64,000 bases of DNA, taken from positions 372,001 to 436,000 of the forward strand of contig NZ_JALPRS010000003.1 in NCBI RefSeq assembly GCF_023630255.1. Reading direction: 5' to 3'. The notes beneath the pieces are model-generated. The model searched no databases, had not been told where the DNA came from, and was given only the letters and a program-made list of their open reading frames with translations. The DNA comes from Pontibacter deserti. Lineage in GTDB: Bacteria > Bacteroidota > Bacteroidia > Cytophagales > Hymenobacteraceae. This document shows, one piece after another, positions 1 through 64,000 of the stretch; the first letter of the stretch is position 1; each line of letters starts with the position of its first letter. Both the position numbers and the translations under genes were made by a program.

Positions 1-49
1 TCCGTTATAAAAAGCTGGTTTAATAAATATCTGATTTTATATATAAAAA

Positions 50-77
50 GCCGCTGCAGTAGTTGCAGCGGCTTTTT
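50..77. terminator. Hairpin terminator at left edge
   Basis: Nine-base arms (GCCGCTGCA and TGCAGCGGC) enclose a five-base loop. They are preceded by AAAA and followed by TTTTT, so the hairpin could act in either direction. It probably ends a gene lying to the left of the window. Confidence 0.75.
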
Positions 78-303
78 GTTTATAGGTAGAAGTATAATTT
101 AAATTACCTTTGAAAGGATAGAGAATTGGTAAGGATTATGCGTAAAAAACCTTCAATGAAATTGTACTAAAATAATTATATTTTGTTACTTTTTGTGTTC
201 TTTTATCTTGTGTTAACAAATTGATAACAAGGCTCGTAGCCATTAATATACAGAAAGCCAAAGGGATAAATTAGTTGTTCAACAAATTAAGCTTATCCTA
301 ATT
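78..303. other. Non-coding leader region
   Basis: This AT-rich stretch shows no supported gene. A TACCTTTG string at 105-112 matches the Bacteroidetes -7 consensus TAnnTTTG, but I see no TTG at the required 19-20 bp upstream. It is noted only as a weak promoter candidate for the 31-codon ORF that follows. Confidence 0.35.
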
Positions 304-399
304 ATGAAAAATGTTTACCACAATGATGATGAGTTAGCTTACTGGATTATTGCAGGATACTTCGCAGTTGTTGGAGTAGTTGCAATGCTGGTATCTTAA
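304..399 (+). CDS. 31-residue single-span membrane protein, hypothetical
   Basis: ATG to TAA reads MKNVYHNDDELAY followed by a hydrophobic segment of about 18 residues ending in AMLVS. The polar, acidic first 13 residues and a single predicted membrane helix (about residues 14-31) resemble real small membrane proteins rather than random sequence. A strong hairpin terminator follows 21 bases after the stop, and the gene stands alone on its strand, so it probably forms a one-gene transcript. I do not recognise the family. Short proteins of this size are usually missed by gene callers. The alternative is that this is a chance ORF; the terminator placement argues against that but does not prove translation. 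Confidence 0.55.
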   Translation: MKNVYHNDDELAYWIIAGYFAVVGVVAMLVS

Positions 400-420
400 G
401 TTAATTGTTCCGTATGGAAA

Positions 421-458
421 CATAGAAGCCGCACCTTTAGATGCGGCTTCTATGTTTT
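421..458. terminator. Bidirectional hairpin terminator
   Basis: Perfect 13-base arms (CATAGAAGCCGCA and its complement) enclose an eight-base loop, followed by TTTT. It lies between the plus-strand 31-codon ORF and the end of the minus-strand serine hydrolase, so it probably serves both. Confidence 0.75.
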
Positions 459-477
459 ATAAGTATGTAAGTTCGGG

Positions 478-2049
478 TTATTTTACTCTTACAAATTTCA
501 GTTCATCAAAGTGGAAGTCTGGATTGTTTGCATCCAGGCGCATCTGGCTTATAGTGCCGTCCTCACCAATTAAAAACCTTACCCGGGTTGGGGTTAGCAG
601 CGCAAAATCGTTTTTCCAGTCCAGGTCGAAGATGTCGTGCTGCCAATGGTTAAGGGTACCGCTCAGAGCAGGTGCCGGAGCCAGCTGAAGATCCAGTTTC
701 CCATCTTTTAAAGTAACAGTAGCGTTGCCATAAAGCTCACTGTAGTAAGTGCCGGTATAAGCCGTCAGGTCCATTGTAGCCTTTGTTTTACGCTTCTTCT
801 CTTTCGGGGCTTTTGCCTGTGCTTCGGCTTGTTGTTTTTTAGCTTTTGCCATCATGTCCAACGAAACCTGGCTCCAGTCTTTGCCATTCTGCACACCAAA
901 AAACTGGTCTAAGGTATAGTTTGCCAGCGGCGACATAATGCTGCTCATGCTGTTGGTTAGAATAACAATGCCCAGGTTCTCTTCCGGTACCAGTACGGTG
1001 CGGCTGTTCATGCCTTCGTGGCCACCACCATGGTATACTTGTTTGCGTCCTTCGTAATCGCTTACGAACCAACCTAAGCCGGCTGCAGTAAAGTGTGTGG
1101 ACGGCATATACTCTTCAGCACCTTTTGATACAGGCATAGGGTTGTGTGCCTGCCACATATGGCGGCTGGCATTTTCGCTGAAGATCTTTTTCCCTTTGTA
1201 GGTGCCGCGGTTCAGGTGTAAACGCATCCATTGGGCCTGCTGCGTAACACTGGTAAATATACCAGCAGCTGGGTTCCAGTTATCCCAGGCAGTAAGTGTG
1301 GTGGCAACAGGCTTCTCATCTTTATCAAACCCATGTGGCGATGCTACATTCTGCACCCCTTTCAGATCGTTTACGGAAGTATAAGAGCGGTTCATGCCCA
1401 GCGGCTGGAAGAATGTTTCTTTAATGTAGTTCTCCCATGTTTTTCCAGACACCTTCTCGATCACTTCTCCGGCTGTAATAAACATCAGGTTAGAGTAACC
1501 ATAACCATCCCGGAAACCATATTCAGGCTCCAAATACTGCATTCTCCGGATGATATCTTCGCGGCTATAAGTAGTGTTATACCAAAGCAAATCGCCGCTA
1601 AATGTTTTCAGGCCTACACGGTGGCTCAGCAGGTCTTCGATAGTCAGATTTTCGGTAACATAAGGAGAGTACATCTTTAAGTAAGGTAGGTACTTGTTTA
1701 CCTTATCTGTCCATTTTATTTTACCGGCATCAACCAACGTAGCCAGTGCCGCCGAAGTATAAGCTTTAGAGTTAGAGGCAATTCCAAATAATGTATTTGC
1801 ATCTACTTGTCCGCCTGTTTTGTTATTAAGTACACCGTAACCTTTTGCAAATATTACAGAGTCGTTTTTAACAATGGCAATGGCCATACCCGGCACATCC
1901 CAGTCTTTCAGGGCTTTCTGATAATAAGCATCGAGTTTGGTTATAGTTGCAGCCGTAGTCGCTTTCTGGGCAAATGCTGGTTGAAATAATAAGCACAGCA
2001 TCAGGCATAGCAAAGTATAGCTGATGCGTGAAGTATAGATTTTGTTCAT
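478..2049 (-). CDS. Serine hydrolase, beta-lactamase class C / PBP-like, with DUF3471-type tail
   Basis: This 523-residue protein has a signal peptide (about 1-27, ending AFAQ) and so should be periplasmic or surface-exposed. The class C beta-lactamase/DD-peptidase fold spans about 35-400. Its catalytic SxxK motif is S92-N-S-K95, the YxN motif is Y185-S-N187, and an HGG box starts at H340 in place of KTG, which is typical of esterase or peptidase members rather than true beta-lactamases. A Lys/Ala-rich linker (about 400-422) leads into a C-terminal beta domain like DUF3471. The natural substrate cannot be read from the sequence; D-amino-acid peptides or esters are typical for the family. It is monocistronic, with a hairpin just beyond the stop. 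Confidence 0.88.
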   Translation of the reverse strand: MNKIYTSRISYTLLCLMLCLLFQPAFAQKATTAATITKLDAYYQKALKDWDVPGMAIAIVKNDSVIFAKGYGVLNNKTGGQVDANTLFGIASNSKAYTSAALATLVDAGKIKWTDKVNKYLPYLKMYSPYVTENLTIEDLLSHRVGLKTFSGDLLWYNTTYSREDIIRRMQYLEPEYGFRDGYGYSNLMFITAGEVIEKVSGKTWENYIKETFFQPLGMNRSYTSVNDLKGVQNVASPHGFDKDEKPVATTLTAWDNWNPAAGIFTSVTQQAQWMRLHLNRGTYKGKKIFSENASRHMWQAHNPMPVSKGAEEYMPSTHFTAAGLGWFVSDYEGRKQVYHGGGHEGMNSRTVLVPEENLGIVILTNSMSSIMSPLANYTLDQFFGVQNGKDWSQVSLDMMAKAKKQQAEAQAKAPKEKKRKTKATMDLTAYTGTYYSELYGNATVTLKDGKLDLQLAPAPALSGTLNHWQHDIFDLDWKNDFALLTPTRVRFLIGEDGTISQMRLDANNPDFHFDELKFVRVK

Positions 2050-2122
2050 GAAGTTAGTGTTTTAAGGTGCGGCAATATAGGGATTTTTAGAGTTGCAGGA
2101 AAATGAGGGTTATGAGTAATAT

Positions 2123-2735
2123 TTAAAGATAGCTATCCTTTCATAGCTATCTTTAATCCTGGGAGCTCTATCCACCTACCGTTTCATCTATAGCTATGGT
2201 GCCCTCACGGCCGGGAGGCCCCCTCTTTGGGCATCGCGCGGTTGCTTTCTTGCTATCCTCCTACGTCGGATTGCCCTTCAGGCACCGCAACAAATCAAAG
2301 GCGCTCAACCCAAAGACTGATATCTTTCTCATAGCAACCTCTATTCTATACTTTGAACTTGCTCGCTTCGAGATTGATCGTGATAATATTTTCGTAAGGA
2401 CAGGTCAAGACCTGTCCGATCTTGGTCTGTAACTATAAACCTATAGCTTCAGCAATAGCAATAGCAGGATTGTCCCCTTGAGGGGACTACAGGGGTGTCG
2501 AATCAGCAACTATAAAACTATATCTCCAACTATAGTAGTAGCAAAAAGGCTCCCCGCCTTAGACAAGGAGGGGTTGGAGTGGTTGGATCACAGCAACTAT
2601 AAACTACAAATTCCAAACATTAGCTGCTGCTCAAAAGACCTCCGAGCGTTTGCAAAACCTCGGAGTGTCTCAAGGATCAGCCGCTTTATAGCAAAGACGC
2701 TCGTAGGAGCTGCGCACGCTACGAGCGTCTGTTAA
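2123..2735. repeat. Palindrome-rich non-coding mosaic, copy A
   Basis: The 730-base gap between two minus-strand genes holds no credible CDS but is packed with hairpins. Arms are at 2123-2136/2143-2156 (14 bp perfect), 2398-2406/2409-2417 (GGACAGGTC with its complement), 2472-2477/2482-2487 (GTCCCC/GGGGAC) and 2695-2706/2719-2730 (AGACGCTCGTAG with its complement). A 34-base block at 2290-2323 is identical to 43788-43821. Neighbouring stretches also align in the same order with the second copy: the CAATCCTGRGAGCT-like start, a GGCC-rich block, and the GGACAGGTC palindrome followed by TGGTCT.TAACTATAAA. The unit therefore looks like a dispersed intergenic element made of nested palindromes. 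Short ORFs inside it are not supported. Confidence 0.75.
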
Positions 2736-2779
2736 AACTTCTTCAATTTAATAAATGAGGATAGCTGGGAAGGAGTAGA

Positions 2780-3751
2780 TCAGTTACCTTCTTCCCTCGG
2801 CTTATGCGGTCCTGTTTCATACTCCTTTTTCTCCATCTCCAGGCGGTGGAGTTCTTCCGGAGTTAGTGTGTTGGCAAGTGTGCCCAAACTGGGTTGGCCA
2901 GCATCTACCCAGGCAGTGTACCAGTAGTTGGCAACGGCTTGCACAGCCAATCGCATTTGGCGCTCTACCTGCCCGTTTAACTTTTTGCTGTAAGCTTCTG
3001 AAAACTCGCGGGAATACACGCGGGTGGTCAGGTTGTTGCGCACTTCAAAACTATACTTCTTTTCTTCGTCGAACTCCCGGGTTAGCTGCCGCTCAAAGTA
3101 TAGAACTGAATCTAAGGCTGTATGTGCACTGGCAACCAGATCCCACGCTTTAAGCTGAGGTTGCTCCAGGTATTGGGCCGGCCCAACAAAAAAGTCATAG
3201 TTATCAGAGAACAGTTCGGGCAACCGCGATTCCCAAAAGGCATGTATGCCACGCTGGTTTGTTAGTTGCCCATTATAGTTGCTGGTGGTGTGTAGCGGCA
3301 CGCAGGCATCGGCAATGTAGTGGCCAATGTCAGCAGAGAGGCGCAGGATCTTATCCAGGTTTCTTTCTTTGAAAGCCTGCGTTAGCTGGTACTTCATAAA
3401 GTTGATATGCCACGGTACAATACCATAAGCCAGTAGGGTGTCTTCTGTAAACTGCTCCACAGCCGGCTGCCAGAAACGTGGCAGTTTGTACAAGGCGCTG
3501 TCTCCGTATTCGTCTAGGTCGATGTAATGGCGGGGTGCTTCATCTTTTACAGCATAGCGGCGTTTGTCGGGGTTAACGGCATTCTCTGTAATGTAGCGGA
3601 TGTGCTTTTTGTAGAAACCGACCATTTCGGGTGGCAGGGCAAACACGGCCAGCCTGTTTATGCGCTGGTGCGCATAAAAGCCCCAACTATAGCCATGCAA
3701 AGGCAGCAACAATGCATAAAGTACAAGTATAGCTTTTATAGTTGTGGACAT
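2780..3751 (-). CDS. Zinc-dependent phospholipase C / S1-P1 nuclease superfamily protein
   Basis: This 323-residue secreted protein has a leader of 22 residues ending HGYS, followed directly by Trp23. In this superfamily the mature N-terminal Trp is itself a zinc ligand. Candidate ligands follow in the family order and spacing: H28, H75/D79, H144, D148, H154, H170 and E174. The D-to-H step (+6) and the final H-to-E step (+4) match Bacillus cereus phospholipase C as I recall it. The fold is therefore confident, but phospholipase and nuclease activity cannot be distinguished from sequence. The tail (about 300-323) is charged and low in complexity. It is monocistronic, with the palindrome mosaic downstream. 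Confidence 0.8.
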   Translation of the reverse strand: MSTTIKAILVLYALLLPLHGYSWGFYAHQRINRLAVFALPPEMVGFYKKHIRYITENAVNPDKRRYAVKDEAPRHYIDLDEYGDSALYKLPRFWQPAVEQFTEDTLLAYGIVPWHINFMKYQLTQAFKERNLDKILRLSADIGHYIADACVPLHTTSNYNGQLTNQRGIHAFWESRLPELFSDNYDFFVGPAQYLEQPQLKAWDLVASAHTALDSVLYFERQLTREFDEEKKYSFEVRNNLTTRVYSREFSEAYSKKLNGQVERQMRLAVQAVANYWYTAWVDAGQPSLGTLANTLTPEELHRLEMEKKEYETGPHKPREEGN

Positions 3752-3859
3752 ACCTGCGGTGTACGGAATCTAAGAAGATATTGATATTAACTATACTTTA
3801 TATTAATTATCTGCTATATTTATGTAAATTTCTTTAAAAAATATAGATTTAATCCAAGC

Positions 3860-4735
3860 ATGAAACACTTAATACTTCTAACTATTGGGGTTTTCTTAAC
3901 AATGAATCTTCAGGCACAGAAGCTTTCGGAGAAAGTAATGCAAAAAGCCTGCGATTGTGTTAATAATCTTAAGACTTATCAGCAACTTCAGGATAGTTTG
4001 CAAAACTGTACTGTAGAAGCGATGGCTTTTGTAATGAAAAATGGCACGTCTGAAGAGCGGGAGACACTAAGTAAGGTTGAAGGTATAACCGGTATATTCA
4101 AAGATGTGAAAGAAGCGCTGCCGTCTTATTGCGATAATGTAAGAAAATTGATGGTAGAAGAGAAGGTAAGAGAATATTATAGATTATCATTAAACAAGAA
4201 TGCTAACAAGTATTATGAAGAAGGTAACGAGCTTCTAGAGAAAGGTGATTTTACGGGAGCCAGAAAGGAATACGAGAAGGCTGTTAAAATTGATAAAAAC
4301 TTTGTGTACGCTCTTGATCATATTGCCATTTCGTACCGGCGAGAAAAGAATTTTGAGCTAGCAATAAAGTATTATAAGAAGTCCTTAGATGTATTTCCGG
4401 AGGGGAACTTAGCTCACTTGAACCTTGCAGTTGTTTATAGTTTACTTGAGGACTACGACAACGCTTTAAAGCATTATCAAGAATTAGTTTATCTATATCA
4501 GGATGATCCGGAGGGGTATTTTGGAGCTGGAAAGATTTTGTTTATACAGACAAAATATGAACAGGCGCTAGAAAATCTGTTTACGGCATATTTGTTGTAT
4601 AAAAAAACAAACTCAAATTACCTCAAAGACAGTGAGAGTTTAATAAGTATGGTCTACACTGATTTGAAAAATAAAGGCAAATTAGACATCTTTACTCAAA
4701 AGGCTCAGCAGTATAATGTTTCTATAAGTGAGTAG
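3860..4735 (+). CDS. Secreted tetratricopeptide-repeat protein
   Basis: This 291-residue protein has a signal peptide (about 1-19, ending LQAQ). A Cys-containing N-terminal segment (about 20-105) is followed by three to four TPR units from about 110 to 280, recognisable by repeated N/EALKHYQ- and GAGKIL-type helices. TPR arrays are protein-binding scaffolds; no enzymatic motif is visible. The gene is more AT-rich than its neighbours and contains few of the ACTATA/AGTATA hexamers common elsewhere, which may hint at later acquisition. It is a single gene, ending at a bidirectional hairpin shared with def. Confidence 0.75.
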   Translation: MKHLILLTIGVFLTMNLQAQKLSEKVMQKACDCVNNLKTYQQLQDSLQNCTVEAMAFVMKNGTSEERETLSKVEGITGIFKDVKEALPSYCDNVRKLMVEEKVREYYRLSLNKNANKYYEEGNELLEKGDFTGARKEYEKAVKIDKNFVYALDHIAISYRREKNFELAIKYYKKSLDVFPEGNLAHLNLAVVYSLLEDYDNALKHYQELVYLYQDDPEGYFGAGKILFIQTKYEQALENLFTAYLLYKKTNSNYLKDSESLISMVYTDLKNKGKLDIFTQKAQQYNVSISE

Positions 4736-4770
4736 TTTTTCAATTTAATATGGTTACCTAAAACCAAAAA

Positions 4771-4803
4771 CGGCCTGCTATAAAACTACAGCAGGCCGTT
4801 CTT
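4771..4803. terminator. Bidirectional terminator between TPR gene and def
   Basis: Nine-base arms (CGGCCTGCT/AGCAGGCCG, 4771-4779 and 4790-4798) have an A-tract on the left and a T-rich stretch on the right. They sit between convergent genes. Confidence 0.8.
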
Positions 4804-4823
4804 TATACTTCTAAACTATAAAC

Positions 4824-6391: not shown

Positions 6392-6392
6392 G

Positions 6393-9203: not shown

Positions 9204-10577
9204 TTATTTTTGCCCTACAGCCTGTTGTGGCGGGGCAACTTCATCAAAAGGTAAAATCCAGGTTTTAGGTAAAAAGCTGTCCTCTTCGGCGGCCAGATTT
9301 TTGGTCGGGTCGATGAAAAGACGGCTGTCGCGGCCATTCATAGTTACATATACTTCTGCACGAACCTCCGGTGCCGGTATGCCTTTCTGCTTATAATCGT
9401 CGCGGATGATGTGGGCAAACTGCAGGAGCATGTCGGGTTGGGTAGCTACCATTTTCTCCTGGTTTGGGGTAAGGTAATCGCGGTTGTTTATTTCAGACTC
9501 GTTGCCGGTTCGTGGGTCGCGCACATAAAAAAAAGCAGTGCCGGCTTTCTCCATCAGCATTACCCGCCACGAAAAACGGTAGCCCTGTTCTGTCCAGAAA
9601 AGTTTATCAGGATATAGCATAAAACGCCATGGCACCAGCACCTGCAGCACAAAGTAAAAGGCCAGCAAATTTAAAACTATAGACTGAGATTTTATAGTTG
9701 CTACCCTATAGTTTTGCGGCAACTGTACGCTGGTTATACTTCTGAAAAAGGCAAGAATACGCTCATGAAAAGCAGGAGAGAAGAAAATCAGTGTGCTCAC
9801 CATCATAATATAAGGGAACATACCGATCTGGAACAGCACAGCCGTCAGCACATGGAAAACTATAACGGTAGCATAGGCCAGCAGCCTGCTCTTGCGCCAA
9901 CTCAAAAAGAACGGAATAGTAAGGTCATAAAAAGCGCCAAACCAGCTGAAAACATAGGCTACCCAAACATAGTCGAAGAGTGGACCAATGAGTGGCAGGT
10001 GCGTGTGAGCCGGTAACCACACGCGCAGCGGCATGGCCTCCAGCAGCCAGTCTGGGTTAAGCTTGGCTACACCGGCGTAAAAGTATACCAGCCCCAGTTG
10101 CAGCTGAAAAATAAGTATAGTCCAGCGCGGCACATGGCTTGCCCACAGGCCAGGCTTGCGCAGCACATCCAGCGAAAAATGGCGGTGCGCCGGCACCAGT
10201 ATCATCAGGAAGGCAACTATACTTACAAAGTAATAATGATTCAGGTAGTTAGTCTTATCTATCAGCTCTACATAGGTAAAGCTTAGGAAGAACAGTGCCG
10301 CAGCCCACCTGTAAAACAGCCCCAGCATAATACCCAAGGCTGATAGCGCCATTACGCAAAACAAAATATACATCCCGGTTTCACCGAGCGGTTTTACCCA
10401 TTCAAAGCCATAAAACGGGAAGTATACTTTAGGCATTACATACAGCTCTGTTACCCAGCCTTTTAGTATAAAGCGCACAATGCTGGCCAGCATCATTCCG
10501 CCGAAAATTATACGGAACATTGCCAGCGGCGCAGCAGACATAGGAGTAGTAAGGAAAGGACGGAGCTTTAGCAACAT
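9204..10577 (-). CDS. HTTM-domain membrane protein (vitamin K-dependent carboxylase-like)
   Basis: This 457-residue multi-span protein has about eight hydrophobic segments between residues 20 and 335, followed by a soluble tail of about 120 residues. Family signatures include DKTNYLNHYYF at about 106 and FYAGVAKLNPDWL at about 165, typical of the HTTM domain that is related to vitamin K-dependent gamma-glutamyl carboxylase. Whether it carboxylates anything is unknown; bacterial HTTM proteins are largely uncharacterised. Its position between imelysin and a TonB receptor suggests a role in metal acquisition, for example acting on a peptide or on the receptor system. It ends one base before the receptor gene and starts 12 bases after the imelysin stop. 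Confidence 0.82.
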   Translation of the reverse strand: MLLKLRPFLTTPMSAAPLAMFRIIFGGMMLASIVRFILKGWVTELYVMPKVYFPFYGFEWVKPLGETGMYILFCVMALSALGIMLGLFYRWAAALFFLSFTYVELIDKTNYLNHYYFVSIVAFLMILVPAHRHFSLDVLRKPGLWASHVPRWTILIFQLQLGLVYFYAGVAKLNPDWLLEAMPLRVWLPAHTHLPLIGPLFDYVWVAYVFSWFGAFYDLTIPFFLSWRKSRLLAYATVIVFHVLTAVLFQIGMFPYIMMVSTLIFFSPAFHERILAFFRSITSVQLPQNYRVATIKSQSIVLNLLAFYFVLQVLVPWRFMLYPDKLFWTEQGYRFSWRVMLMEKAGTAFFYVRDPRTGNESEINNRDYLTPNQEKMVATQPDMLLQFAHIIRDDYKQKGIPAPEVRAEVYVTMNGRDSRLFIDPTKNLAAEEDSFLPKTWILPFDEVAPPQQAVGQK

Positions 10578-19958: not shown

Positions 19959-22900
19959 TTAGCGTTGTAGCACAAGCTTCTGCACAAAAGTTTCATCATT
20001 ATAATGAATTCGCATAAAGTATACACCACTGGCATTGGCTGATAAATCGATGTCGCCCTCATACATGCCGTTATGCTTCTCTACTAAACCTGTTTTAAGT
20101 GGCTTGCCAAGGATATCATACACTTCATACCTGATTACATCAGTTGGGACAAGTTCTGCAGCAAGTATGAATATGCCAGAGCTTGGGTTACGGGCAATAA
20201 TGACTTTACCATTCAGTTCTGCTGCGCCTGGTTTATAAACAAAATTATAAACTTCAGATGTTTTTGAAACGCAGCCATCTACTGTAGCTATCAGGCTGTA
20301 TTTACCACTCTCAGTTGGTGTATAGTTTTGATCTGTAGCACCTGGTATAGGGCTACCATTTAAAAACCACTGATTTCCAGTTGCTGCATTTGATGTAAGA
20401 ACTTCGCCATTACGTGTAATAACAGCTTGGTCTATAGCGTTTTTACCTTTTACCTGTACTTCTATACGTTCACTTTTACAGCCAAGAGCCTTCACCTTAA
20501 GATCGTAGAAGTAGTAGTAATAAGTATTGGATTCAGTTGATGCAGAGTTTCCAGTTATCTCAAAAACATTTGGTACGCCCATAGGGTATGGAACATTTGC
20601 TTTGTTGTTTCTGAACAGTGTCGCACCAGTTGTACTTTCAAAATCAACTGCAATTGTATAGTTTCCTGCGGCTGGTAATTTTAATCCTAAATAATAAACC
20701 TCACCCTGGTCAGCAGGATCGTTAGGAAGAGGGCCTGGTCCAGGTGTTGATCGTGTAGGCGTAGCATCTATTGTTCTGATAGATACGGCTGCATCATTCT
20801 CATCGAATACTGTAAATGTAATTTTGCCTGCGTTTCCAATATAAAGCCTGGCACTCTCAAGAACTACCGGAGCATAAGCTTTAACATAGACATCAGGGTC
20901 GAATTGGTTGTAGTCTCCATAGCTTAAATCAGATTTCTTGGTATAGCCTACACTTACATTCAGATCATTAATACCTGCATACATAGTAGTTCCTACTTTA
21001 TCAGCCGGGAATTGGAATTGATTTCCTATAGCCACCGGATTGGTATCTGTAGCAGAGTTATACCAGTAAATTGAACCGTTACCTGTTCCGGTAAAAGAGT
21101 AGTTCGGGTCATTTCCGCAACGCTGAATAGAGACCTGTGGAGCACTTTCAGTACCAGGTACAGTCAGGATAAATGCTTTTTGGTTATTTGAAGGAATTAC
21201 ATCTCCCTGTAATCCTGCTTCTGCAATAAGCTCATAAGTCGCGCCTGCTTCAGTTGAGAATGCCGGCAACGTTAGTTCTCCCTCTCGTGATGGATTAATT
21301 GAACCTTTATAAACTGTATTCAACTGAGTTACTTCTGTTCCATTTTTACGCACAGCAACTTTAACAGGAATATTGCTCTGTATTGTTGAGCCATTGTTAC
21401 GAAGCCTTACACTTACAATTTGGCTTGGCGTTGCACATATAACTTCATCAATGGTGCTGATACTTAAGGCAGCAATGTCTTTAGCCGGTTTATTAAGCTG
21501 GACCAGATAATCTTGTGTTTCGCCATTACTATATGTGCCACATGATGCTATAGTAGTAGCATCTGTAGTTTCTGATAATACAACACGCATACGAACTTTA
21601 TAACCTATTGTAATATTTGTAGGAGCAGTAACAGCGGCATTTATAGTAGTATTATCATCTATTACTGATGATACGGCAGCTTCTTCACCGGCATCAGTAA
21701 AGCTGCCATTGGCATTCCAGTCGATAAATACCTTTGCAATCTTAGCTGCATTGGTAGTGCAGGTGCCTGGCTTAATCTGGATATTTCTGGTTTGGCCGGC
21801 TTCTATCGAGAATATCGCTTCTGTATTGTTGCTATAAGTCGTGCATCCAGGTGTACCTGCCGGAGAAATGGTAGTGCCGTCTATTGCTACACTTTCTATT
21901 CTGGAACCTTGTTCTGATGTTGGAGCCGAAGTACAATAAATTGCGCCACCAACACCACTTGCAAGTATAGAGTATGCCTGTGGCCCTTTGGATAAAGTGC
22001 CTTTGTGGCGTACACTTATCTTGTATGTTTCACCGGGGGCCGGGTTTGCGATAAGAATTTGCTCTACATTGTCCAGTATGTTATCTCCGGGAGTTGCGGC
22101 AGCTGTTGGAGCTGCTGGATTTAATGTCCATGGCTGATAGGTAGTGCCATCATGAAAAATTCTTACATCTAAGTCGTTTACCAACCGAGGTGCTCGGTTA
22201 TTAAGCGCAATTGTTGCCAGTTCAATTGGAGTTGCCTCTGGGTCAGTCCAAGCAATTGTTACTACCAGTGGTCCTGTTCCTGAAGCAACAACATCTAGGT
22301 TATAGGTTTCGCCCTGCTGTAACTGACGTTCTTCTATCAAATGTTTGTAAAGTGGTGTGCCAGCACGTTTTGAATCAGTTATGGTCATAGCAGCGCGTCC
22401 CACATTCAATAATCCCCAACCATGTATATAGTCAGGACCAGCTGCAATACCTGCCTCATCGGCTGTATGTATCACGAGGCCTTTAAGTGTCGCAGAACGC
22501 ATCACACTGCCGTTCATGGTATTGGCATAATGTTCTTGTAGCAATAGTAATGAACCTGATACATTAGGGGCTGCCATTGATGTACCACTCATTACACCAT
22601 ACGCATTATTGCTTGTACCTAGAGAAGATAGCAGGTTTACGCCATTACCCACAATGTCTGGTTTTATACGGCCATCGTCAGTAGGACCCCAACTGCTAAA
22701 GGAAGAGATTTTTACATCAGAAGTCTGCTGGTAACCATTAGAGATAGGCTCTACTGCACCTACAGTAAGTACATTTTTAGCAGTTCCATAGGTAGAAATA
22801 ATATCGTAACCATTATTGTTGCTTATATTGCCTCTTGCAGCTATCAGCTCAAAAGATCCGGTTCTTGAACGGCGGAAATATGGTTGTCCTGGTGCCGGGC

Positions 22901-23732
22901 CGTTTTCGCTGCGGTTGTTGCCAGACGATTTTACCATCAGATAATAGGGTGCATCATATGCTATTTTATCCCATTGCGCTGCACTGTTATCATAATAACC
23001 AAACTTGTAGTCTTCAAAGGTGCTAATATCCGGATTACCCCACCATTCCCAGTACGGATCAGTAGTGCCACCTTTACGATCAGGATTATAGCGCCAACCG
23101 CTTATAGAGCCATAAGAATGATTAGAAACTAATAAATTCTTGGCTGCGGCGGCCATCTCAGACACGTCATTACTAAAATCATATGCATATAATTTTTTTG
23201 TCTGATACGCCATGCCTTTTGCCAACAAGTTTACTCCTGATGCTGCCATAGTTCCGGCTACGTGTGTAGCATGGTCGCTAACTGTAGTTGCTCCGTCCTG
23301 CTGTACCACACGGCTATTTAGCTCCTGATGAGAAGTGCGTACACGGCCACCATCCCAGATAGCTAATTTATCGCCTACTGCGCTACTTGCTCCGCTAAGT
23401 GCAAGCCCAAGTGATCCGCCTACCCATACCTGATCAGTGCCTACTGTGGCAGCCGCACGTGAGTTGTTATCAGTAATATAGTAAATAGGCATTCCTTTAG
23501 AGTCAATGCCTTGTAAGGAGATGTGACGACCGTCAGAAGATGTTTTCTCAATAACCCAGCCATGTTTTTTTGCCAACTCCAGAGCTTTAGCCCTGTTTGC
23601 TTTATAGTCTTTTGCTGCGGCTACTGAAAATCTTTCTAACTCAAGCTTGTTAGTTGGTGCTGTACGCTGTGCAATTGCCGTGGTGGTCGTAACTAAGGTT
23701 AGAGCTGTGATCCAAAGGCTCAATCTTCTCAT
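19959..23732 (-). CDS. Large secreted S8 (subtilisin-like) protease with GEVED domain and T9SS sorting tail
   Basis: This 1257-residue protein has a signal peptide (about 1-22). The S8 catalytic domain contains D127 (WDGG), H157 (HATHVAG), the oxyanion N272 (SSGNN) and S385 (GTSMAAP). An insert-rich catalytic domain and a proprotein-convertase-like beta domain (about 470-590) follow. A GEVED-type module lies at about 600-745 (VFIDWNANGSFTDAGEE), then CARDB-like and Ig-like beta modules. The last ~75 residues form a type A T9SS C-terminal sorting domain. It is therefore exported through the outer membrane and anchored or released at the surface. Codons are relatively poor in the ACTATA/AGTATA motif. 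Confidence 0.92.
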   Translation of the reverse strand: MRRLSLWITALTLVTTTTAIAQRTAPTNKLELERFSVAAAKDYKANRAKALELAKKHGWVIEKTSSDGRHISLQGIDSKGMPIYYITDNNSRAAATVGTDQVWVGGSLGLALSGASSAVGDKLAIWDGGRVRTSHQELNSRVVQQDGATTVSDHATHVAGTMAASGVNLLAKGMAYQTKKLYAYDFSNDVSEMAAAAKNLLVSNHSYGSISGWRYNPDRKGGTTDPYWEWWGNPDISTFEDYKFGYYDNSAAQWDKIAYDAPYYLMVKSSGNNRSENGPAPGQPYFRRSRTGSFELIAARGNISNNNGYDIISTYGTAKNVLTVGAVEPISNGYQQTSDVKISSFSSWGPTDDGRIKPDIVGNGVNLLSSLGTSNNAYGVMSGTSMAAPNVSGSLLLLQEHYANTMNGSVMRSATLKGLVIHTADEAGIAAGPDYIHGWGLLNVGRAAMTITDSKRAGTPLYKHLIEERQLQQGETYNLDVVASGTGPLVVTIAWTDPEATPIELATIALNNRAPRLVNDLDVRIFHDGTTYQPWTLNPAAPTAAATPGDNILDNVEQILIANPAPGETYKISVRHKGTLSKGPQAYSILASGVGGAIYCTSAPTSEQGSRIESVAIDGTTISPAGTPGCTTYSNNTEAIFSIEAGQTRNIQIKPGTCTTNAAKIAKVFIDWNANGSFTDAGEEAAVSSVIDDNTTINAAVTAPTNITIGYKVRMRVVLSETTDATTIASCGTYSNGETQDYLVQLNKPAKDIAALSISTIDEVICATPSQIVSVRLRNNGSTIQSNIPVKVAVRKNGTEVTQLNTVYKGSINPSREGELTLPAFSTEAGATYELIAEAGLQGDVIPSNNQKAFILTVPGTESAPQVSIQRCGNDPNYSFTGTGNGSIYWYNSATDTNPVAIGNQFQFPADKVGTTMYAGINDLNVSVGYTKKSDLSYGDYNQFDPDVYVKAYAPVVLESARLYIGNAGKITFTVFDENDAAVSIRTIDATPTRSTPGPGPLPNDPADQGEVYYLGLKLPAAGNYTIAVDFESTTGATLFRNNKANVPYPMGVPNVFEITGNSASTESNTYYYYFYDLKVKALGCKSERIEVQVKGKNAIDQAVITRNGEVLTSNAATGNQWFLNGSPIPGATDQNYTPTESGKYSLIATVDGCVSKTSEVYNFVYKPGAAELNGKVIIARNPSSGIFILAAELVPTDVIRYEVYDILGKPLKTGLVEKHNGMYEGDIDLSANASGVYFMRIHYNDETFVQKLVLQR

Positions 23733-23914: not shown

Positions 23915-24889
23915 TTACCTCCTGATGTACTGTGCGTACTCTTTAGCAAAGTAAGTTAATATGATATCGGCGCCGGCACGTTTTATACTTGTCAGCACTT
24001 CAACCATGGCTTTTTCACCATCTATCCAGCCATTTTGAGCTGCTGCTTTTACCATGGCATATTCACCACTGATATTATAAGCTGCAATTGGCAGATAGGA
24101 GTTGTCGCGAAGTGATTTGATGATGTCCAGGTAAGCCAGGGCTGGTTTTACCATCAGAAAGTCAGCACCTTCCTGTGTGTCCAGTTCTGCTTCTAATAAA
24201 GCTTCTCGGCTGTTGGCAAAGTTCATCTGGTAAGTTTTCTTGTCACCTTTCTTAGGGGCGGAGTCCAGTGCGTCGCGGAACGGACCGTAGAACGAGCTGG
24301 CATACTTTGCGGTGTAGCTCATAATGCCAACCTTATGATAGCCTGCTTCGTCCAGCACACGTCTGATGTGGCCAACTCTGCCATCCATCATATCTGAAGG
24401 GCCAACTATATCGGAACCCGCTTGGGCTTGTACCAACGCCATCTTGCCTAAAACTTCTAAGGTTTCATCATTCAGGATCTCGCCATTCTCCACGATTCCA
24501 TCATGACCATCAGAACTATAAGGGTCCAGGGCAACATCAGTCATCAGCACTACATCCGGGAAATTTCTCTTGATCTCACGGATCGCTTTCGGGAACAAGC
24601 CTTCCGGGTTATGGCTTTCCGTGGCCATTTTATCTTTCAGCTGTTCTGGTATACTTGCAAATGGGGCAAAAGCTTTTACACCTAACTCCACACAGCTGTT
24701 CACTTCTTCTAAAAGGGTGTCGATAGAGAAGCGGTTGATGCCAGGCATAGAGCTTATCTCTACTTTTTTGCTCTGGCCTTCTATTATAAATAACGGATAA
24801 ATGAAGTCATTCAGGGTTAGCGTGGTTTCAGCCACCATGTTCCGGATAACTTCGCTTTGACGGTTACGTCTTGGTCTTCTTGTTATCAT
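23915..24889 (-). CDS. hemB: Porphobilinogen synthase (delta-aminolevulinate dehydratase)
   Basis: This 324-residue cytosolic enzyme condenses two 5-aminolevulinate molecules to porphobilinogen in heme biosynthesis. Schiff-base lysines are K195 (SYTAKYAS) and K248 (MVKPALAYLD). The metal-binding loop (from D118, DVALDPYSSDGHDG) carries Asp where zinc-type enzymes carry Cys, so this is the Mg-dependent type. Normal length. It is transcribed alone. Confidence 0.97.
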   Translation of the reverse strand: MITRRPRRNRQSEVIRNMVAETTLTLNDFIYPLFIIEGQSKKVEISSMPGINRFSIDTLLEEVNSCVELGVKAFAPFASIPEQLKDKMATESHNPEGLFPKAIREIKRNFPDVVLMTDVALDPYSSDGHDGIVENGEILNDETLEVLGKMALVQAQAGSDIVGPSDMMDGRVGHIRRVLDEAGYHKVGIMSYTAKYASSFYGPFRDALDSAPKKGDKKTYQMNFANSREALLEAELDTQEGADFLMVKPALAYLDIIKSLRDNSYLPIAAYNISGEYAMVKAAAQNGWIDGEKAMVEVLTSIKRAGADIILTYFAKEYAQYIRR

Positions 24890-45485: not shown

Positions 45486-46646
45486 ATGACGTTTGAAGAA
45501 TACCTTGTAAAGAAACGCATTAATAAAGCTGCATTTGTGGCTGGCGACCCTGCGCGGTTTGCTGCCTGGGAAGACATGTATACCCAGATGCACCCGAACA
45601 GCTTTTATATTGCCGTAAAAATGGTGATAAATGATGTGCGGTTAAGGTATCATTTAGCGGAAAAAGATGTGCCAAAAGCTGCTCCGGCAACTGCTGCACC
45701 ACGCCCGGTTATGCGTCGTGCCGCTCCGGCTGCAGAAGCAACACAACCTGCTGTTCCACAGGAAACATTAGAAGCCACACCAACTCCAAAGCCGCGGCCA
45801 GTAGTTAAGCACCCAACTATAACCAAGCCAACTATAGCCGAAGGCGAAACTATAAATCCGGAAGAAACTAAACCTGCTGAGCCAGCTAAGCCAAGGCCGG
45901 TAATCAAGCGACCAATTATAGCTAAACCTGCAGCTACTGCAGAGGGCGAAACTCCGGTTTCAGAAAGTAAGCCTGCAACAGAAGGTACCACGCCAACCAG
46001 ACCACGGCCGGTAATTAAGCGTCCTGCCGCTTTACAGAAACCTGCTACAGAAGGAACAGAAGCTACCAAAGCTTCAGAGCCAACTATAGTTCCGGAAGCC
46101 GAAACGCCTAAACCACCAGCGCGCCCAAGACCTGTTATAAAAAGACCGACTGCCCTGCAAAAGCCAACAGAAGAAAAACCTGCGGATGTAGAAGGTCCAT
46201 CAACAGAGATAACTAACGGAACTATAAAGCCAGCAGAAACTATAGTTTCAGGAGAGGCGGAAACGCCAAAACCTGCCCGGCCACGACCGGTAATGAAACG
46301 ACCTGTAGCTCTGCAGCAGCCACTTGTAGCAGAAGAAGCTAAACCTGAAGCTGAAAAGTCGGAAGAGCAGCCAACTATAAACGCTGCCGAAGAACCTGTT
46401 CCTGCGCCAAAGCCACCAAGGCCGCGACCTGTAATTAAAAGGCCAACGCCTGCTACAGAGTCAACTATAAGCGAAGCGAAACCGGAAGAACCAACGCAGC
46501 CAACTATAGCTGAGGCAAAAGCTGAGCAGCCTGAACCGGAGGTACCAACAGACGAAACTATAAAACCAAAGCCGCCACGTCCGCGCCCTATTATCCGGAG
46601 GCCACCGCCTAAACCAGATGAGACCGGCGACGCAACCGGCGTATAA
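45486..46646 (+). CDS. Pro/Thr/Lys-rich PRPVIKRP-repeat protein
   Basis: This 386-residue protein has no signal peptide. A folded-looking head (about 1-62) begins MTFEEYLVKKRINKAAF and contains aromatic residues. The rest is a disordered array of about eight units built on PRPVIKRP (variants PRPVMRRA, PRPVVKHP, PRPVMKRP, PRPIIRRP), separated by acidic Glu/Thr/Ala/Pro linkers. The charge alternates between basic PRPVIKRP blocks and acidic linkers. All ten Thr-Ile pairs are encoded ACT-ATA. It resembles proline-rich, SH3-ligand-like or polyelectrolyte spacer proteins, but I know no family. kbl follows 58 bases after it on the same strand. Confidence 0.75.
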   Translation: MTFEEYLVKKRINKAAFVAGDPARFAAWEDMYTQMHPNSFYIAVKMVINDVRLRYHLAEKDVPKAAPATAAPRPVMRRAAPAAEATQPAVPQETLEATPTPKPRPVVKHPTITKPTIAEGETINPEETKPAEPAKPRPVIKRPIIAKPAATAEGETPVSESKPATEGTTPTRPRPVIKRPAALQKPATEGTEATKASEPTIVPEAETPKPPARPRPVIKRPTALQKPTEEKPADVEGPSTEITNGTIKPAETIVSGEAETPKPARPRPVMKRPVALQQPLVAEEAKPEAEKSEEQPTINAAEEPVPAPKPPRPRPVIKRPTPATESTISEAKPEEPTQPTIAEAKAEQPEPEVPTDETIKPKPPRPRPIIRRPPPKPDETGDATGV

Positions 46647-46704
46647 CTATAGTTTATAACTTATCCAGAACTAAAAACGAACAACGATAAACGAATAACG
46701 AAAT

Positions 46705-52459: not shown

Positions 52460-53167
52460 ATGCAGCAGATTCAAGCGGGAGATATTATCTCTTATACACA
52501 AATGTGCCTTTCGGAAGGTCATTCTTTGCAACGGGGAATGAATTTCCAAATTGGTGGCAGGGTAAGCGTTATCCTAATGTCTGTGCGTAAAGGTGCTCCT
52601 TATGCGGATAGGTTGGAAGACGATGGAGAAGTTTTAATTTATGAAGGACATGATGTCCCTAAAAATGAAGCTGCATATCCAAAGTTAGTTGATCAGCTAA
52701 TGGAAACTCCAAAAGGTACTCCAACTCAAAACGGGAAATTCTTTAAGGCCGCCCATGATTTTAAAGATGGTGGAGCAGAACCTGAACTGGTGAAGGTATA
52801 CGAGAAAATTAAAGATGGCATTTGGGTTTATAATGGTGTCTTTGAGCTAATTGATGCCTGGGAAGAAATAGGTGATAACAGAAGTGTTTTCAAGTTTAAG
52901 CTAAGAGTAACTGATAGGACTGCATCACAAAAAACTGAAAGAGCTGAAGAGCTTAAAGATTTAAATCATAATAGAATGATCCCTACTTCAGTTAAACTAG
53001 ATGTTTGGAAGCGTGATAAAGGTAAATGTGTTGAGTGTGGTAGCAGTGATAACCTTCATTTTGACCATATTTTACCCTTCTCAAAAGGTGGCACATCTCT
53101 TAAAACAGATAATATCCAATTGCTTTGTGCAAGACATAATTTGCAAAAAAGCGATAAAATAGTTTAA
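52460..53167 (+). CDS. SRA-like domain / HNH nuclease, candidate modification-dependent restriction enzyme
   Basis: This 235-residue protein starts five bases after the DoxX gene and ends 11 before the ABC permease. The N-terminal part (about 30-152) resembles SRA/YDG base-flipping domains: GGRVSVILMS, then EDDGEVLIYEGHD and a closing SVFKFKLRV. The C-terminal part (about 175-235) is an HNH nuclease: Cys190 and Cys193, D202-H203, N218, Cys223 and H226. SRA-HNH fusions typically recognise 5-methyl- or hydroxymethyl-cytosine and cut DNA (type IV). It is AT-rich compared with its neighbours and contains none of the ACTATA/AGTATA hexamers, which points to recent transfer. The SRA assignment is less certain than the HNH. 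Confidence 0.72.
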   Translation: MQQIQAGDIISYTQMCLSEGHSLQRGMNFQIGGRVSVILMSVRKGAPYADRLEDDGEVLIYEGHDVPKNEAAYPKLVDQLMETPKGTPTQNGKFFKAAHDFKDGGAEPELVKVYEKIKDGIWVYNGVFELIDAWEEIGDNRSVFKFKLRVTDRTASQKTERAEELKDLNHNRMIPTSVKLDVWKRDKGKCVECGSSDNLHFDHILPFSKGGTSLKTDNIQLLCARHNLQKSDKIV

Positions 53168-58402: not shown

Positions 58403-58784
58403 AGTTGTATCGTTTATGTCGGATGATGAGCCAGTATAGTGGTGCTATCTGAAGCCCATCATATGAAAATATACCTATCAGTAAATACTGTATTGTGGCG
58501 CAAAAGGTTGAGCGTCATTCGCCTCAGGTGGTGAAACAGCAACCATCAGAGGTCCCTCAATGGTATACATCTGCAACTATAGAAAAAATAGTGCTTACCG
58601 AGGCTACTATGCTTGTTTATAGTGTTTTAACTATATAAATTGTGTACGTAATATTTCAAGATAATATTTGCTTTAGCCTGCATTATCAATTCCTAAGCCC
58701 TCCTTTGGGGACAGAAGCAATAAGTTAGTAGTGTTGGAGCGAGAGAAGAAGTGATTTGTTTCTGTTTTATTATATACATTTTTT
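58403..58784. other. Intergenic region before the 1340-residue protein gene
   Basis: This 382-base gap holds no gene and no hairpin with a T-run. A perfect promoter is not visible. It must contain the start signals for both the minus-strand 56-codon gene and the plus-strand giant gene. Confidence 0.4.
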
Positions 58785-61700: not shown

Positions 61701-62807
61701 GCCTTTAACCAAGACTTGATCACCTATAATAATAAGAGTGCTGCCTCTGTAACTGTAACAGGTGCAGAAGTAGGAGCTACTTATAACTATTCTATAACCA
61801 GCTCTGGAGGAGGAACTCTGGTAACAGGTACCGGCGAAGTAACAGCTGCTACCTTTAATGTTAATGATATCGACGTTACTCCTTTAGCAGATGGTGAGTT
61901 AACTATAGCGCTAAAACTGACGGATACAGCTAAGAATACAGGGGCTGATGCCACAGCACAAACGAAGAAGAATACCCGCTACGTAATTGGCGCCGCCCGA
62001 CCATCGTATGTGAAGGTGCCTTACCTGACTACATTTGCCCAGTTAGGTAGCAGCTTACCAGCTACCGTAGAGGCTACGTATCTGGATGGTAGAAAAGAAC
62101 CTCTTCCTGTTACCTGGGATGGTGCTACTTATAAGGGCACTGAAGCCGGCGTTTACGAGCTTATTGGAACGCTAACTTTAGCTGAAGGAACTATAAACCC
62201 GGATAATGTAACTACTTACATTATAGTAGAAGTGGAGCAAAGTAAAGCGCCTACTGCTATTGCGTTAAGCAAAAATGCACTGGAAGAGAACAATGTAATA
62301 GGTACCGTTATAGGTGTGTTATCAACCACAGACCCTGATGCTGGTGATACACATACTTTTAAACTGGTAGATGGCGATGGAGATACAGACAATGCGCTCT
62401 TCACGATTGAAGGTAATGAGCTGAAGGCAGCACAGGTATTTGATTTTGAAACGAAGAGTAGCTTTAGTATTCGTATTCAGACAAAGGACAGCGGTGGCTT
62501 AACTCATGAAACAGCTAAAGTTATCACAGTAAATGATGTGTACGAAGCACCTACAGGTATAGCAGATGAGCATTATACAGGATTGAAAGTTTATCCTAAC
62601 CCAGCCAGCCAGTACCTGGTCGTAAGTTCAGATAAAGTTATCGAATCTGTCAGCTTAGTGAACAGCCAGGGCAGAGTGGTACTTAAAAGTGCAAACAGAA
62701 GCGTGCAGGTGCAGCTAAATACTGAATCTTATACGCCTGGGGTATACACAGTACTTGTTGCCTCGCAAGGCAAAATCTATAGTCGCCGTATAGTTATAGT
62801 TAGATAA
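58785..62807 (+). CDS. Giant T9SS surface protein with two beta-propeller blocks, Ig-like and cadherin-like domains
   Basis: This 1340-residue protein has an unusually long N-terminus: 40 mostly polar residues precede the hydrophobic leader (about 41-56, ending GYGQ). Two blocks of seven or so ~48-residue repeats (about 60-410 and 515-865) follow the pattern LDA.G.PYVAY.D...KATVMK(Y/F)NGT.W..VG, typical of beta-propellers. Between them sits an Ig-like domain (about 415-505, VRYQWQVSQDGG). Two cadherin-like domains (about 866-965 and 1150-1250) flank a bacterial Ig-like domain (about 1065-1145). The end is a type A T9SS sorting domain (VYPNPASQYLVV...). It is likely a surface adhesin or binding protein. 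Confidence 0.86.
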   Translation: MQQLYSKASVGLRTSLPHSVETGSAKLGLPNSRKSVKAISLLLFFALFFSLRLGYGQSTYSWQPVGKAGISVGAATHTSIVLDAQGVPHIAFYGDAGTGIGTRGMVMKYDGTNWVAVDIFGFSDGVINSTSLAIDANSKPYIAYQDSDAGKNKAVVKTIRDGRFRLVRYDGLFPNEGTGASAAGDNPSIALDKSGVPYVAIQDELNGNRLTVYKFIGNSWVMVGAAGFSAGVAYNPSLKLNANNVPYVAYQDGGSAGKVTVMKYNGTDWENVGTAGLSDDVATEPSLALGSNGMPYVAYSEGSDKMATVKKFNGSAWEGVGATKFSVSGALTISLALDAAGVPYVAYRDFGNGNEATLMKFNGTTWDAVGTSASAGAAYYTSLTIDAYGTPYVAFQDGENGNKATVMKFVPAAPAITVQPVSKSVTADAGVNFLVEATGEGTVRYQWQVSQDGGSTYLNIQDGLGYTGAATPTLAISKASIYMNGYQYRVLVNNGAVTVSNASILTVNMKGYGNTSIWQVVGKRGFSPGSVQYSKVAVDASGTPYVAFADASQGGRATVMRYNGTNWELVGSAGFSGGMTQYLITSQLSLAIDANGTPYIAYTDGSKNDKATVMKFDGTQWVTVGTAGFTPWVATNPVLVIDANGTPYIAFDESGTTVMKFNGTAWVTVGSNKFSANGAVSDLDIALDATGMPNVVFSEYGNNGSRGKVMRFDGTNWLTIGEGNFSAGKAGYTSLELDAMGSPYVAFVDATNGDKATVLKFDGTNWVTVGAASIPDSKVAFTNLKLNAAGVPYLSYSNIYDNNFSRTSVIQFNGTSWELVGDAAILNNSVSDFNISGAGIPYVVYYDGDNSGKATVLSFSPNAMPTDIALVTSIINENVGNYTIVSGFTTTDADANDTHTYTLVSGEGSEDNGNFTISNNSLMILLSPDYEIKSSYKIRVRTSDGKLNGSFEKALVLQVNDLDEIAPANYTVAFNQDLITYNNKSAASVTVTGAEVGATYNYSITSSGGGTLVTGTGEVTAATFNVNDIDVTPLADGELTIALKLTDTAKNTGADATAQTKKNTRYVIGAARPSYVKVPYLTTFAQLGSSLPATVEATYLDGRKEPLPVTWDGATYKGTEAGVYELIGTLTLAEGTINPDNVTTYIIVEVEQSKAPTAIALSKNALEENNVIGTVIGVLSTTDPDAGDTHTFKLVDGDGDTDNALFTIEGNELKAAQVFDFETKSSFSIRIQTKDSGGLTHETAKVITVNDVYEAPTGIADEHYTGLKVYPNPASQYLVVSSDKVIESVSLVNSQGRVVLKSANRSVQVQLNTESYTPGVYTVLVASQGKIYSRRIVIVR

Positions 62808-62835
62808 CTATAAATTATAGTCGACTCTCTTTAAC

Positions 62836-62882
62836 AGAAGGGTATGTTCGGGGTGATACAATCTCCCGGGCATACCTTTTCT
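62836..62882 (+). terminator. Terminator after the giant surface-protein gene
   Basis: Imperfect arms AGAAGGGTATGTTCGGGG and CCCGGGCATACCTTTTCT (about 62836-62853 and 62865-62882) end in a T-run. Confidence 0.7.
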
Positions 62883-62948
62883 GTTTTAGAACAGCTATAG
62901 TTTGAGTATACAGACTTCGGGAATGATGAATAGAAAGGTATAAAAACA

Positions 62949-62977
62949 AAAAAGCCACTCATTGCTGAGTGGCTTTT
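62949..62977 (-). terminator. Terminator of the tRNA-Asn transcript
   Basis: Arms AAAAGCCACTCA (62950-62961) and TGAGTGGCTTTT (62965-62976) enclose a three-base loop. The hairpin lies directly beyond the 3' end of the tRNA-Asn sequence on the minus strand and is probably the original terminator of that gene. Confidence 0.75.
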
Positions 62978-62978
62978 G

Positions 62979-63023
62979 CTCCCCCTCCTGGGCTCGAACC
63001 AGGGACCCCCTGATTAACAGTCA
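62979..63023 (-). tRNA. tRNA-Asn (GTT), 3' portion only: probable attachment site
   Basis: The minus strand here reads the anticodon loop CTGTTAA (anticodon GTT), the 3' anticodon stem TCAGG, a variable loop, the T arm CCTGG-TTCGAGC-CCAGG, and the acceptor strand AGGGGGA with discriminator G (no encoded CCA). The 5' half, D arm and acceptor 5' strand are missing: upstream of the loop only three of five stem bases still pair, and the sequence then diverges. A truncated tRNA 3' end beside an integrase gene is the classic attL/attR of an integrative element, where the intact tRNA copy lies at the other end. Confidence 0.85.
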
Positions 63024-63135
63024 CAGGTGTGATTTGTCACTTATTATCAGATGCTTTTCTATTTGCTGATAAACAGGCTTTTACAGAAAGAGGTTTGACA
63101 TGTTTTTTCCTTTATTAATAGGTCTTATCATGATT

Positions 63136-63157
63136 TGTATGCAAATTGTATGCAAAT
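63136..63157 (+). repeat. Tandem 11-base repeat upstream of integrase
   Basis: TGTATGCAAAT occurs twice head to tail (63136-63146, 63147-63157), one helical turn apart. Including the preceding AT the first copy forms a small palindrome ATTTG-TATG-CAAAT. It sits 17 bases before the integrase ATG and may bind a regulator or the recombinase itself. Confidence 0.55.
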
Positions 63158-63174
63158 ATTAGCAGTAAAATTGC

Positions 63175-64000
63175 ATGCAGGACGCATCCACCAATATAAT
63201 TATCGATACCAGAAGGGCGCTGAAAGACGGAACTTTTCCTGTAAAACTGCGTGTCACATACCAGCGGAAGCAGAAGTACTACCCCACAGGCATTAACCTG
63301 ACCATTGAGGATTTCGAGAAGATGAACTCCAGCCGTCCCGGACGGGAGTTCAAGGGTGTCAAGCTGAAGCTCGAGGCACAGGAACAGGAAGCTGCTCAAA
63401 TTATCTCCAAGCTCCAAAGCTTCTCATTTGAGGATTTTGAGAAACGCATCCAGCGGGACGGACTGCCCAACGAAGTGTTTTCCGCATTTGACGAAGCCAT
63501 CGCGAGATTCCGAAAGGCAGGGAGATCAGCCACGGCTGATAACTACATGAGTGCGCGCAATTCGCTCCGGGGATTTGTCAGCGGTAAGGCTTATGCATCG
63601 CGGAAGGGAAAGACGAAAACAGAAATAAAGGCACTGCTGCAGGAAGAGGAAGAGAACACGCTTCCGCTGCCTTTTTCCCGCGTCACGCCCGGCTTTCTTG
63701 AGAATTATGAGGAATGGATGTCACGTGAAGGACGCTCCGCTACCACCGTGGGTATCTATCTGCGTCCGCTCCGTGCGTTGTTCAACGAAGCCATTGCTTC
63801 CGGCGATGTGTCACAAGAGCAATATCCTTTTGGGAAACGAAAGTACCAGATCCCTGCCGGGGTGAATGTGAAGAAAGCGCTTGGGCTAGGGGACATACAG
63901 AAGATCTTTGATTATGTTCCTGTAACGGAGAGTGAGGCAAGGGGAAGGGACATGTGGATGTTCTCTTACTTGTGCAGCGGGATGAACGTAAAGGATATGG
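63175..64000 (+). CDS. Tyrosine recombinase / integrase, N-terminal part (runs off window)
   Basis: The ATG at 63175 opens an uninterrupted frame of 275 codons to the window edge with no stop. The first ~60 residues form the Bacteroidota integrase arm domain (RRALKDGTFPVKLRVTY, then KQKYYPTGI). A SAM-like core-binding helical domain follows (about 105-225, with YLRPLRALFNEAIASG). The beginning of the catalytic domain is seen (about 235-275, MWMFSYLCSGMNVKDM). The catalytic R-H-R-Y residues lie beyond the edge. It is GC-richer than the neighbourhood and carries no ACTATA/AGTATA hexamers. Together with the tRNA-Asn fragment it marks the start of an integrative element. Confidence 0.9.
   Translation, partial: MQDASTNIIIDTRRALKDGTFPVKLRVTYQRKQKYYPTGINLTIEDFEKMNSSRPGREFKGVKLKLEAQEQEAAQIISKLQSFSFEDFEKRIQRDGLPNEVFSAFDEAIARFRKAGRSATADNYMSARNSLRGFVSGKAYASRKGKTKTEIKALLQEEEENTLPLPFSRVTPGFLENYEEWMSREGRSATTVGIYLRPLRALFNEAIASGDVSQEQYPFGKRKYQIPAGVNVKKALGLGDIQKIFDYVPVTESEARGRDMWMFSYLCSGMNVKDM

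Follow-up and report, generated by a model that had tools for sequence, protein, structure and literature searches.

The genome of Pontibacter deserti (Bacteroidota; Hymenobacteraceae) carries one short, asymmetric word, AA[C/G]TATA (written AASTATA below, S being C or G), in great excess on both strands, and related species carry one-base dialects of it that follow the tree of the genus. The word was traced from a 64,000-nucleotide stretch of contig NZ_JALPRS010000003.1 (positions 372,001 to 436,000, forward strand), which is called the window here and in which the original prediction had noted an excess of the hexamers ACTATA and AGTATA. It is argued below that the word may serve self-recognition in DNA exchange, and this reading is weighed against four others.

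The word and its distribution in the genome

In the window, ACTATA and AGTATA occur 94 and 87 times, and their complements TATAGT and TATACT 86 and 70 times. The totals pooled over both strands (180 and 157, respectively) exceed not only the 44-48 expected by base composition but also the 134 (z 7.3) and 117 (z 6.4) expected from an order-4 Markov model. The window-wide excess is therefore real, and it is sharper than had been claimed, as both hexamers sit within AA[C/G]TATA, a word that continues with A, G or C and seldom with T. On both strands of positions 1-64000 there are 253 copies of AA[C/G]TATA (3.95/kb), made up of AACTATA (n = 130) and AAGTATA (n = 123), with 12.7 of each expected by base composition; the one-base neighbours, the C/G swap excepted, have 2-37 copies each. 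The eighth base is A in 0.46, G in 0.34, C in 0.16 and T in 0.04 of the copies. Positions beyond it carry little information, with A or C weakly favoured just upstream. The hexamer was ruled out as the unit, the heptamer being sharper, and a consensus longer than the octamer was ruled out by the near-empty flanks. The real unit is a heptamer to octamer.

The same excess is found throughout the 4.15-Mb genome, where 15,210 AASTATA copies (7656 forward, 7554 reverse) compare with 1,396 copies of the reversed word (699 + 697). The order-4 count proposed in the original prediction bore the excess out in 624 kb of this genome, comprising the window and 28 further stretches and excluding the 5.5-kb contig C7. 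AAGTATA (n = 1371, 612 expected) and AACTATA (n = 935, 489 expected) are the two commonest 7-mers in this sample, and they rank first and third by order-4 score, with the overlapping AGTATAA between them. An order-5 model expects 1127 AAGTATA against the 1371 observed, the expectations of both models being inflated by the motif's own copies.

The two strands are used equally, and polarity with replication is absent. In the first 264 kb, 343 AASTATA copies are in sense and 334 in antisense orientation to genes, and the sign of the GC skew splits the copies into 521 and 473 (p 0.14). All codon phases are used, the commonest being those that place ATA in frame (180 sense, 211 antisense). The converse claim, that Ile ATA codons lie mostly inside the words, did not hold, since only 371 of 1801 do so.

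Over the 624 kb, AASTATA has a density of 6.90/kb outside called genes and 3.04/kb inside, compared with 0.44/kb and 0.34/kb for the reversed word; the genes were called with a longest-open-reading-frame script, and part of the 'intergenic' DNA may consist of missed genes. In a 20-kb ribosomal-protein region there are only 17 AASTATA (0.85/kb) and 10 copies of the reversed word. Genes with GC below 0.36 have 1.91 AASTATA and 0.70 reversed words per kb, and genes with GC of 0.49-0.52 have 3.12 and 0.13, respectively. There are 46 overlapping dyad pairs of the word in 264 kb. A role of inverted pairs as terminators was rejected, convergent gaps being just mildly denser (9.3/kb) than co-directional (7.1/kb) and divergent ones (7.5/kb). 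The spacing of the word displays no helical 10.5-bp phasing, the 3-bp coding period being its sole periodicity.

Dialects in the genus and turnover of sites

The comparison covered 150 genomes of the family, 50 from Pontibacter (P. deserti included) and 100 from five other genera. In none of these 100 does AASTATA exceed about 1.4-fold of the reversed word, as read from the table of counts, and in none of 22 genomes from other families of the order does it exceed about 1.1-fold. A scan for sharp words in the other genera looked at 18 of 80 named loci; the strongest word among those 18 is CTACCCC in Hymenobacter latericoloratus (32 per 21 kb vs 6.8 expected), which could be an iterated word or a local repeat.

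For the 50 Pontibacter genomes, AAGTATA and AGGTATA were counted and AACTATA was derived by difference, each being scored as a ratio to the reversed word. The cut-offs (motif-poor below 6, motif-rich 8 or above) were chosen after the ratios were known. A tree built from 33 ribosomal-region genes (18,324 columns) shows the dialects to be one-base variants that follow the phylogeny. AAGTATA is dominant in 20 of the 50 genomes (ratio 8.8-38.5), AACTATA marks a clade of seven (7.3-20.9), and AGGTATA a clade of 12 (17.7-38.4; bootstrap 100). Three genomes within the AACTATA clade (P. deserti, G027 and G074) are mixed, with AAGTATA ratios of 12.3-17.6 as well. The other eleven genomes, which fall into two clades with bootstrap values of 97 and 100, are motif-poor, no word having a ratio above 5.7. 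The AGGTATA ratio of 5.7 in one of them (G036) says little, because AAGTATA genomes also show AGGTATA ratios of 3.3-6.7. Nothing convincing was found as an alternative word in 20-60 kb of each motif-poor genome, the signals being a weak AGGTATA in G036 and a weak AAGTATA/AACTATA in G007. The eighth base leans toward A after AAG (G000, G013, G004 and Pontibacter mangrovi), and toward G after AAC (G018 and G031) and after AGG. In P. mangrovi, 45 AAGTATA were counted in 21 kb, against 1.8 expected. From its spread across the genus, we infer that AAGTATA is the ancestral dialect. Both the heptamer-to-octamer unit and the dialects go beyond the original prediction.

The density of the motif is maintained while individual sites turn over. 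About half of the coding copies are common to P. deserti and G031, G130, G074 or G027 at 0.78-0.80 identity, compared with 0.24-0.28 of generic 7-mers; the shared fraction lies between 0.30 and 0.80 over all tested pairs among seven species of its clade. When whole DNA is aligned for five species, 10 of 35 sites in the AGG clade are present in all five, compared with 22 of 283 for permuted words (p 0.0008); in the clade of P. deserti, the corresponding values are 12 of 73 and 52 of 719 (p 0.011). Sites private to one species number 7 of 35 (178 of 283 permuted) in the former clade and 24 of 73 (395 of 719 permuted) in the latter. At unchanged residues, the motif is retained in 1690 of 2490 comparisons versus 4208 of 10463 for permuted words, although the species pairs overlap and the comparisons are not independent.

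Of two polarised counts, the first, with 0 gains and 26 losses, was discarded, its criteria being uneven; the second, a comparable one with 100 permuted words as control, came to 28 to 0 for the motif and 113 to 127 for the permuted words. The site-frequency comparison is fairer than such counts, and it reveals the private sites. Direct C/G swaps make up only 6 of 62 shared sites between P. deserti and G031. Therefore, it appears that dialects change mostly by turnover.

Window genes and motif-free DNA

Two genes of the window are dense in the motif, namely an HTTM / vitamin K-dependent gamma-carboxylase-like gene (9204-10577, minus strand; 12 copies, 8.73/kb) and a gene for a proline-rich repeat-like protein without a Pfam match (45486-46646, plus strand; 12 copies, 10.34/kb). 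The hand counts of the hexamers in the original prediction, 10 in 9601-10260 and 14 in 45781-46680, were exact. The second region, however, lies in the repeat-like gene, whose protein has RPRPVIKRP units and many Thr-Ile pairs, ACTATA being often read as Thr-Ile; the matches there are therefore probably not independent. The genes that had been described as free of the hexamers or sparse in them are so: the SRA-like/HNH gene (52460-53167, plus strand; GC 0.38) has neither a hexamer nor a copy of the heptamer, the TPR gene (3860-4735, plus strand; GC 0.35) has one (1.14 AASTATA/kb), and the subtilase with a sorting tail (19959-23732, minus strand) has four (1.06/kb). The SRA-like and HNH protein may be an acquired nuclease with modified DNA as its target. 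The hemB gene (porphobilinogen synthase; 23915-24889, minus strand; four copies) served to locate orthologous regions, and has 82% identity to that of P. mangrovi and 74% to the runner-up. No tRNA was reported by ARAGORN in the window, where the original prediction had placed a tRNA-Asn fragment. The tetramer CTAG is strongly under-represented in positions 1-64000 (66 vs 297 expected).

In 629.5 kb of P. deserti DNA there are eight motif-free gaps longer than 2.2 kb, against an expectation of 0.73. An integrase and an AAA protein are encoded in the longest of them (5.1 kb). Four others hold a SIR2-like protein, a glycosyltransferase cluster of GC 0.34, a SusD-like gene, and contig C7 (5.5 kb; GC 0.54; 0.18 AASTATA/kb), which is taken for a putative rRNA operon. 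Of the remaining three, one holds two tested proteins that both lack a Pfam match, one a repeat-rich secreted protein, and one a pseudouridine synthase. Ordinary genes occupy at least two of the eight, so some motif-free gaps are not foreign DNA. An AT-rich, motif-poor region in C1:850001-870000 (L211:6898-11999) encodes the integrase, the AAA-type protein and then the SIR2-like protein, and probably represents an integrated element that carries a gene for defence. The suggestion of a lineage-wide signature that acquired DNA lacks is thus supported, the excess being present in the genus and missing from the genomes outside it, and the longest gap holding an integrase.

Explanations for the word

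An asymmetric, orientation-free word that is dense at cheap sites but sparse in constrained genes and in an integrase element, is split into one-base dialects by clade, and is weak or absent in two clades matches what is expected from biased uptake or recombination of DNA from kin. By analogy with known systems, AA[C/G]TATA(R) may be a self-recognition word of the genus, its recognition being linked to DNA uptake or recombination; this reading is assigned a probability of about 0.4. A DNA-binding component of some exchange process, with natural DNA uptake as the likeliest and a later step of recombination as the next candidate, would favour DNA bearing the word. Kin DNA bearing it would then enter or recombine more often, and copies would spread to low-cost positions and be kept there, while genes under strong constraint and DNA of recent arrival would have few of them. 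If the preference of the recogniser moved by one base, the dialect of the genome would slowly follow, and loss of the process would let the word decay. Observed are the excess, its strand symmetry, the dialects by clade, the two clades with little or none of the word, the conserved yet shifting sites, and the scarcity in ribosomal genes and an integrase element; that DNA is exchanged in this way, that a recogniser exists, and which is cause and which effect are inferred. The motif-rich genomes are smaller (median 4.6 Mb, n = 39) than the motif-poor ones (5.8 Mb, n = 11; sizes rounded to 0.1 Mb), with a Spearman correlation of -0.43 between size and motif and an r of -0.54 for independent contrasts. 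A process that excludes foreign DNA would predict this, as might other causes.

The likeness to HIP1 and to uptake sequences drawn in the original prediction is apt. The highly iterated palindromes (HIPs) and the DNA uptake sequences and uptake signal sequences (DUS/USS) are the closest kinds of system, but the word is assigned to neither. As far as the available text of the DUS study goes (PMC3630211), the DUS of Neisseriaceae are likewise short and non-palindromic, with thousands of copies over-represented on both strands; their dialects differ by one or a few bases and agree with the phylogeny, one genome has two dialects at once, and some dyad pairs overlap. The Pontibacter word is shorter and denser than the DUS described there, belongs to another phylum and is accompanied by no full-length pilus ATPase, and its role in uptake is only putative. 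No earlier report of the motif was found in searches on Pontibacter motifs, competence and methylome, on Bacteroidetes uptake sequences and on overrepresented words, whose coverage mostly excluded subscription papers.

Several points weigh against a role in DNA exchange. The core competence genes ComEC and DprA are each present in all 50 Pontibacter genomes, which would suit uptake, but the 11 motif-poor ones are included, and the test is for that reason non-discriminating; broken frames of both are confined to two motif-rich genomes (G009 and G022), where they are taken for assembly error, though this is unproven. No full-length pilus ATPase was found in the 50 genomes, the PF00437 matches spanning at most 66 of 370 positions (three genomes marginally above the cut-off; up to 45 candidates per genome, 31 scored). 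A pilin receptor, the type known for DUS (PMC3630211, in the part available), is therefore unlikely. The literature search found no report of transformation in Pontibacter. The word is also denser than known uptake sequences, with 15,210 copies in 4.15 Mb against 5918 copies of kingDUS in 2.4 Mb in the accessible text of PMC3630211, although the 7-mer is shorter. Finally, in a transformable relative, Riemerella, the candidate signals listed in the available parts of two reports (PMC8459023, PMC7965970) are A/T-run k-mers only, unlike the Pontibacter word.

The same parts of these reports describe Riemerella anatipestifer, of the same phylum and like Pontibacter endowed with ComEC and DprA, as transforming via ComEC, DprA, ComF and RecA together with four proteins that do not resemble known machinery, and Riemerella columbina as favouring its own DNA. 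The missing pilus ATPase therefore leaves uptake possible in Bacteroidota. A more specific version of the self-recognition reading, held a little more tentatively, is that the word would be a Bacteroidota signal for DNA exchange with a receptor unrelated to pilins, with three dialects at differing stages of replacement in one genus and two losses of the word, and would represent an independent invention of the uptake-sequence principle.

Two rather unlikely explanations follow. In the first, an enzyme recognising the word, such as a methyltransferase to which a mismatch-repair preference is coupled, would resolve mismatches toward it, the copies being without benefit and the dialects tracking the specificity. 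In the available text of PMC4390886, HIP1 and alternate HIPs are equally iterated, in coding and non-coding DNA alike, are lineage-bound and replaced or lost in relatives, and are tied to methyltransferases; conservation of sites with turnover is compatible too. HIP1 reaches 300-2700/Mb there, against 3666/Mb for AASTATA, which as a degenerate 7-mer is not directly comparable. In contrast to the HIPs of that text, which are GC-rich palindromes, AASTATAV is AT-rich and asymmetric, and hence no palindromic octamer. Moreover, near-motif words show no depletion, and PF01555 methyltransferases, the sole methyltransferase family searched, are missing from 19 of the 50 genomes, including that of P. 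deserti and 13 of the 39 motif-rich ones.

In the second, to which we likewise give little credence, an abundant protein of chromosome architecture would bind the word, with selection holding site density high and the sites co-evolving with the protein. The orientation-free, genome-wide distribution, the higher density between genes than within them and the retention of the word at the synonymous level speak for such a protein, while the word's scarcity in the highly expressed ribosomal region, the lack of helical phasing and the two clades that manage without the word speak against it.

Chi sites are over-represented short asymmetric words linked to AddAB/RecBCD-type enzymes, and are typically polar with replication and G-rich. 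A Chi-like signal, by which an AddAB-type repair nuclease would spare or repair word-rich genomes and degrade foreign DNA, is very improbable. AddB-like PDDEXK_1 proteins are present in 50 of 50 genomes, the word is scarce in the integrase element, and motif-rich genomes are smaller; the 11 motif-poor genomes, however, all have the enzyme intact, and the word is AT-rich, far denser than Chi and without strand polarity (521 vs 473). None of the candidates ComEC, DprA, the AddB-like proteins and the PF01555 methyltransferases tracks the motif, and the recogniser was not found among them. Least probable of all is a purely mutational origin, through replication or context-dependent mutation, with neither selection nor a recogniser involved: the order-4 and order-5 models do give 612 and 1127 of the 1371 AAGTATA, though the motif itself feeds them, but the one-base neighbours are near chance (the C/G swap excepted), the word shifts by one base between clades, and sites are conserved beyond permuted words.

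What leads some lineages to spread a single short word over their genomes is an open question for HIP1 and is partly understood for uptake sequences. Pontibacter offers 50 genomes in which the word has three one-base dialects, is mixed in some genomes and has been lost twice, so that its recogniser can be looked for by gene profiling and by dialect-matched substitutions. Should the word prove to be an uptake signal, no other with so sharp a definition was met in our search of the Bacteroidota literature, and it would belong to a group with its own transformation machinery. The word may, in addition, be of use for flagging acquired DNA in Pontibacter genomes.

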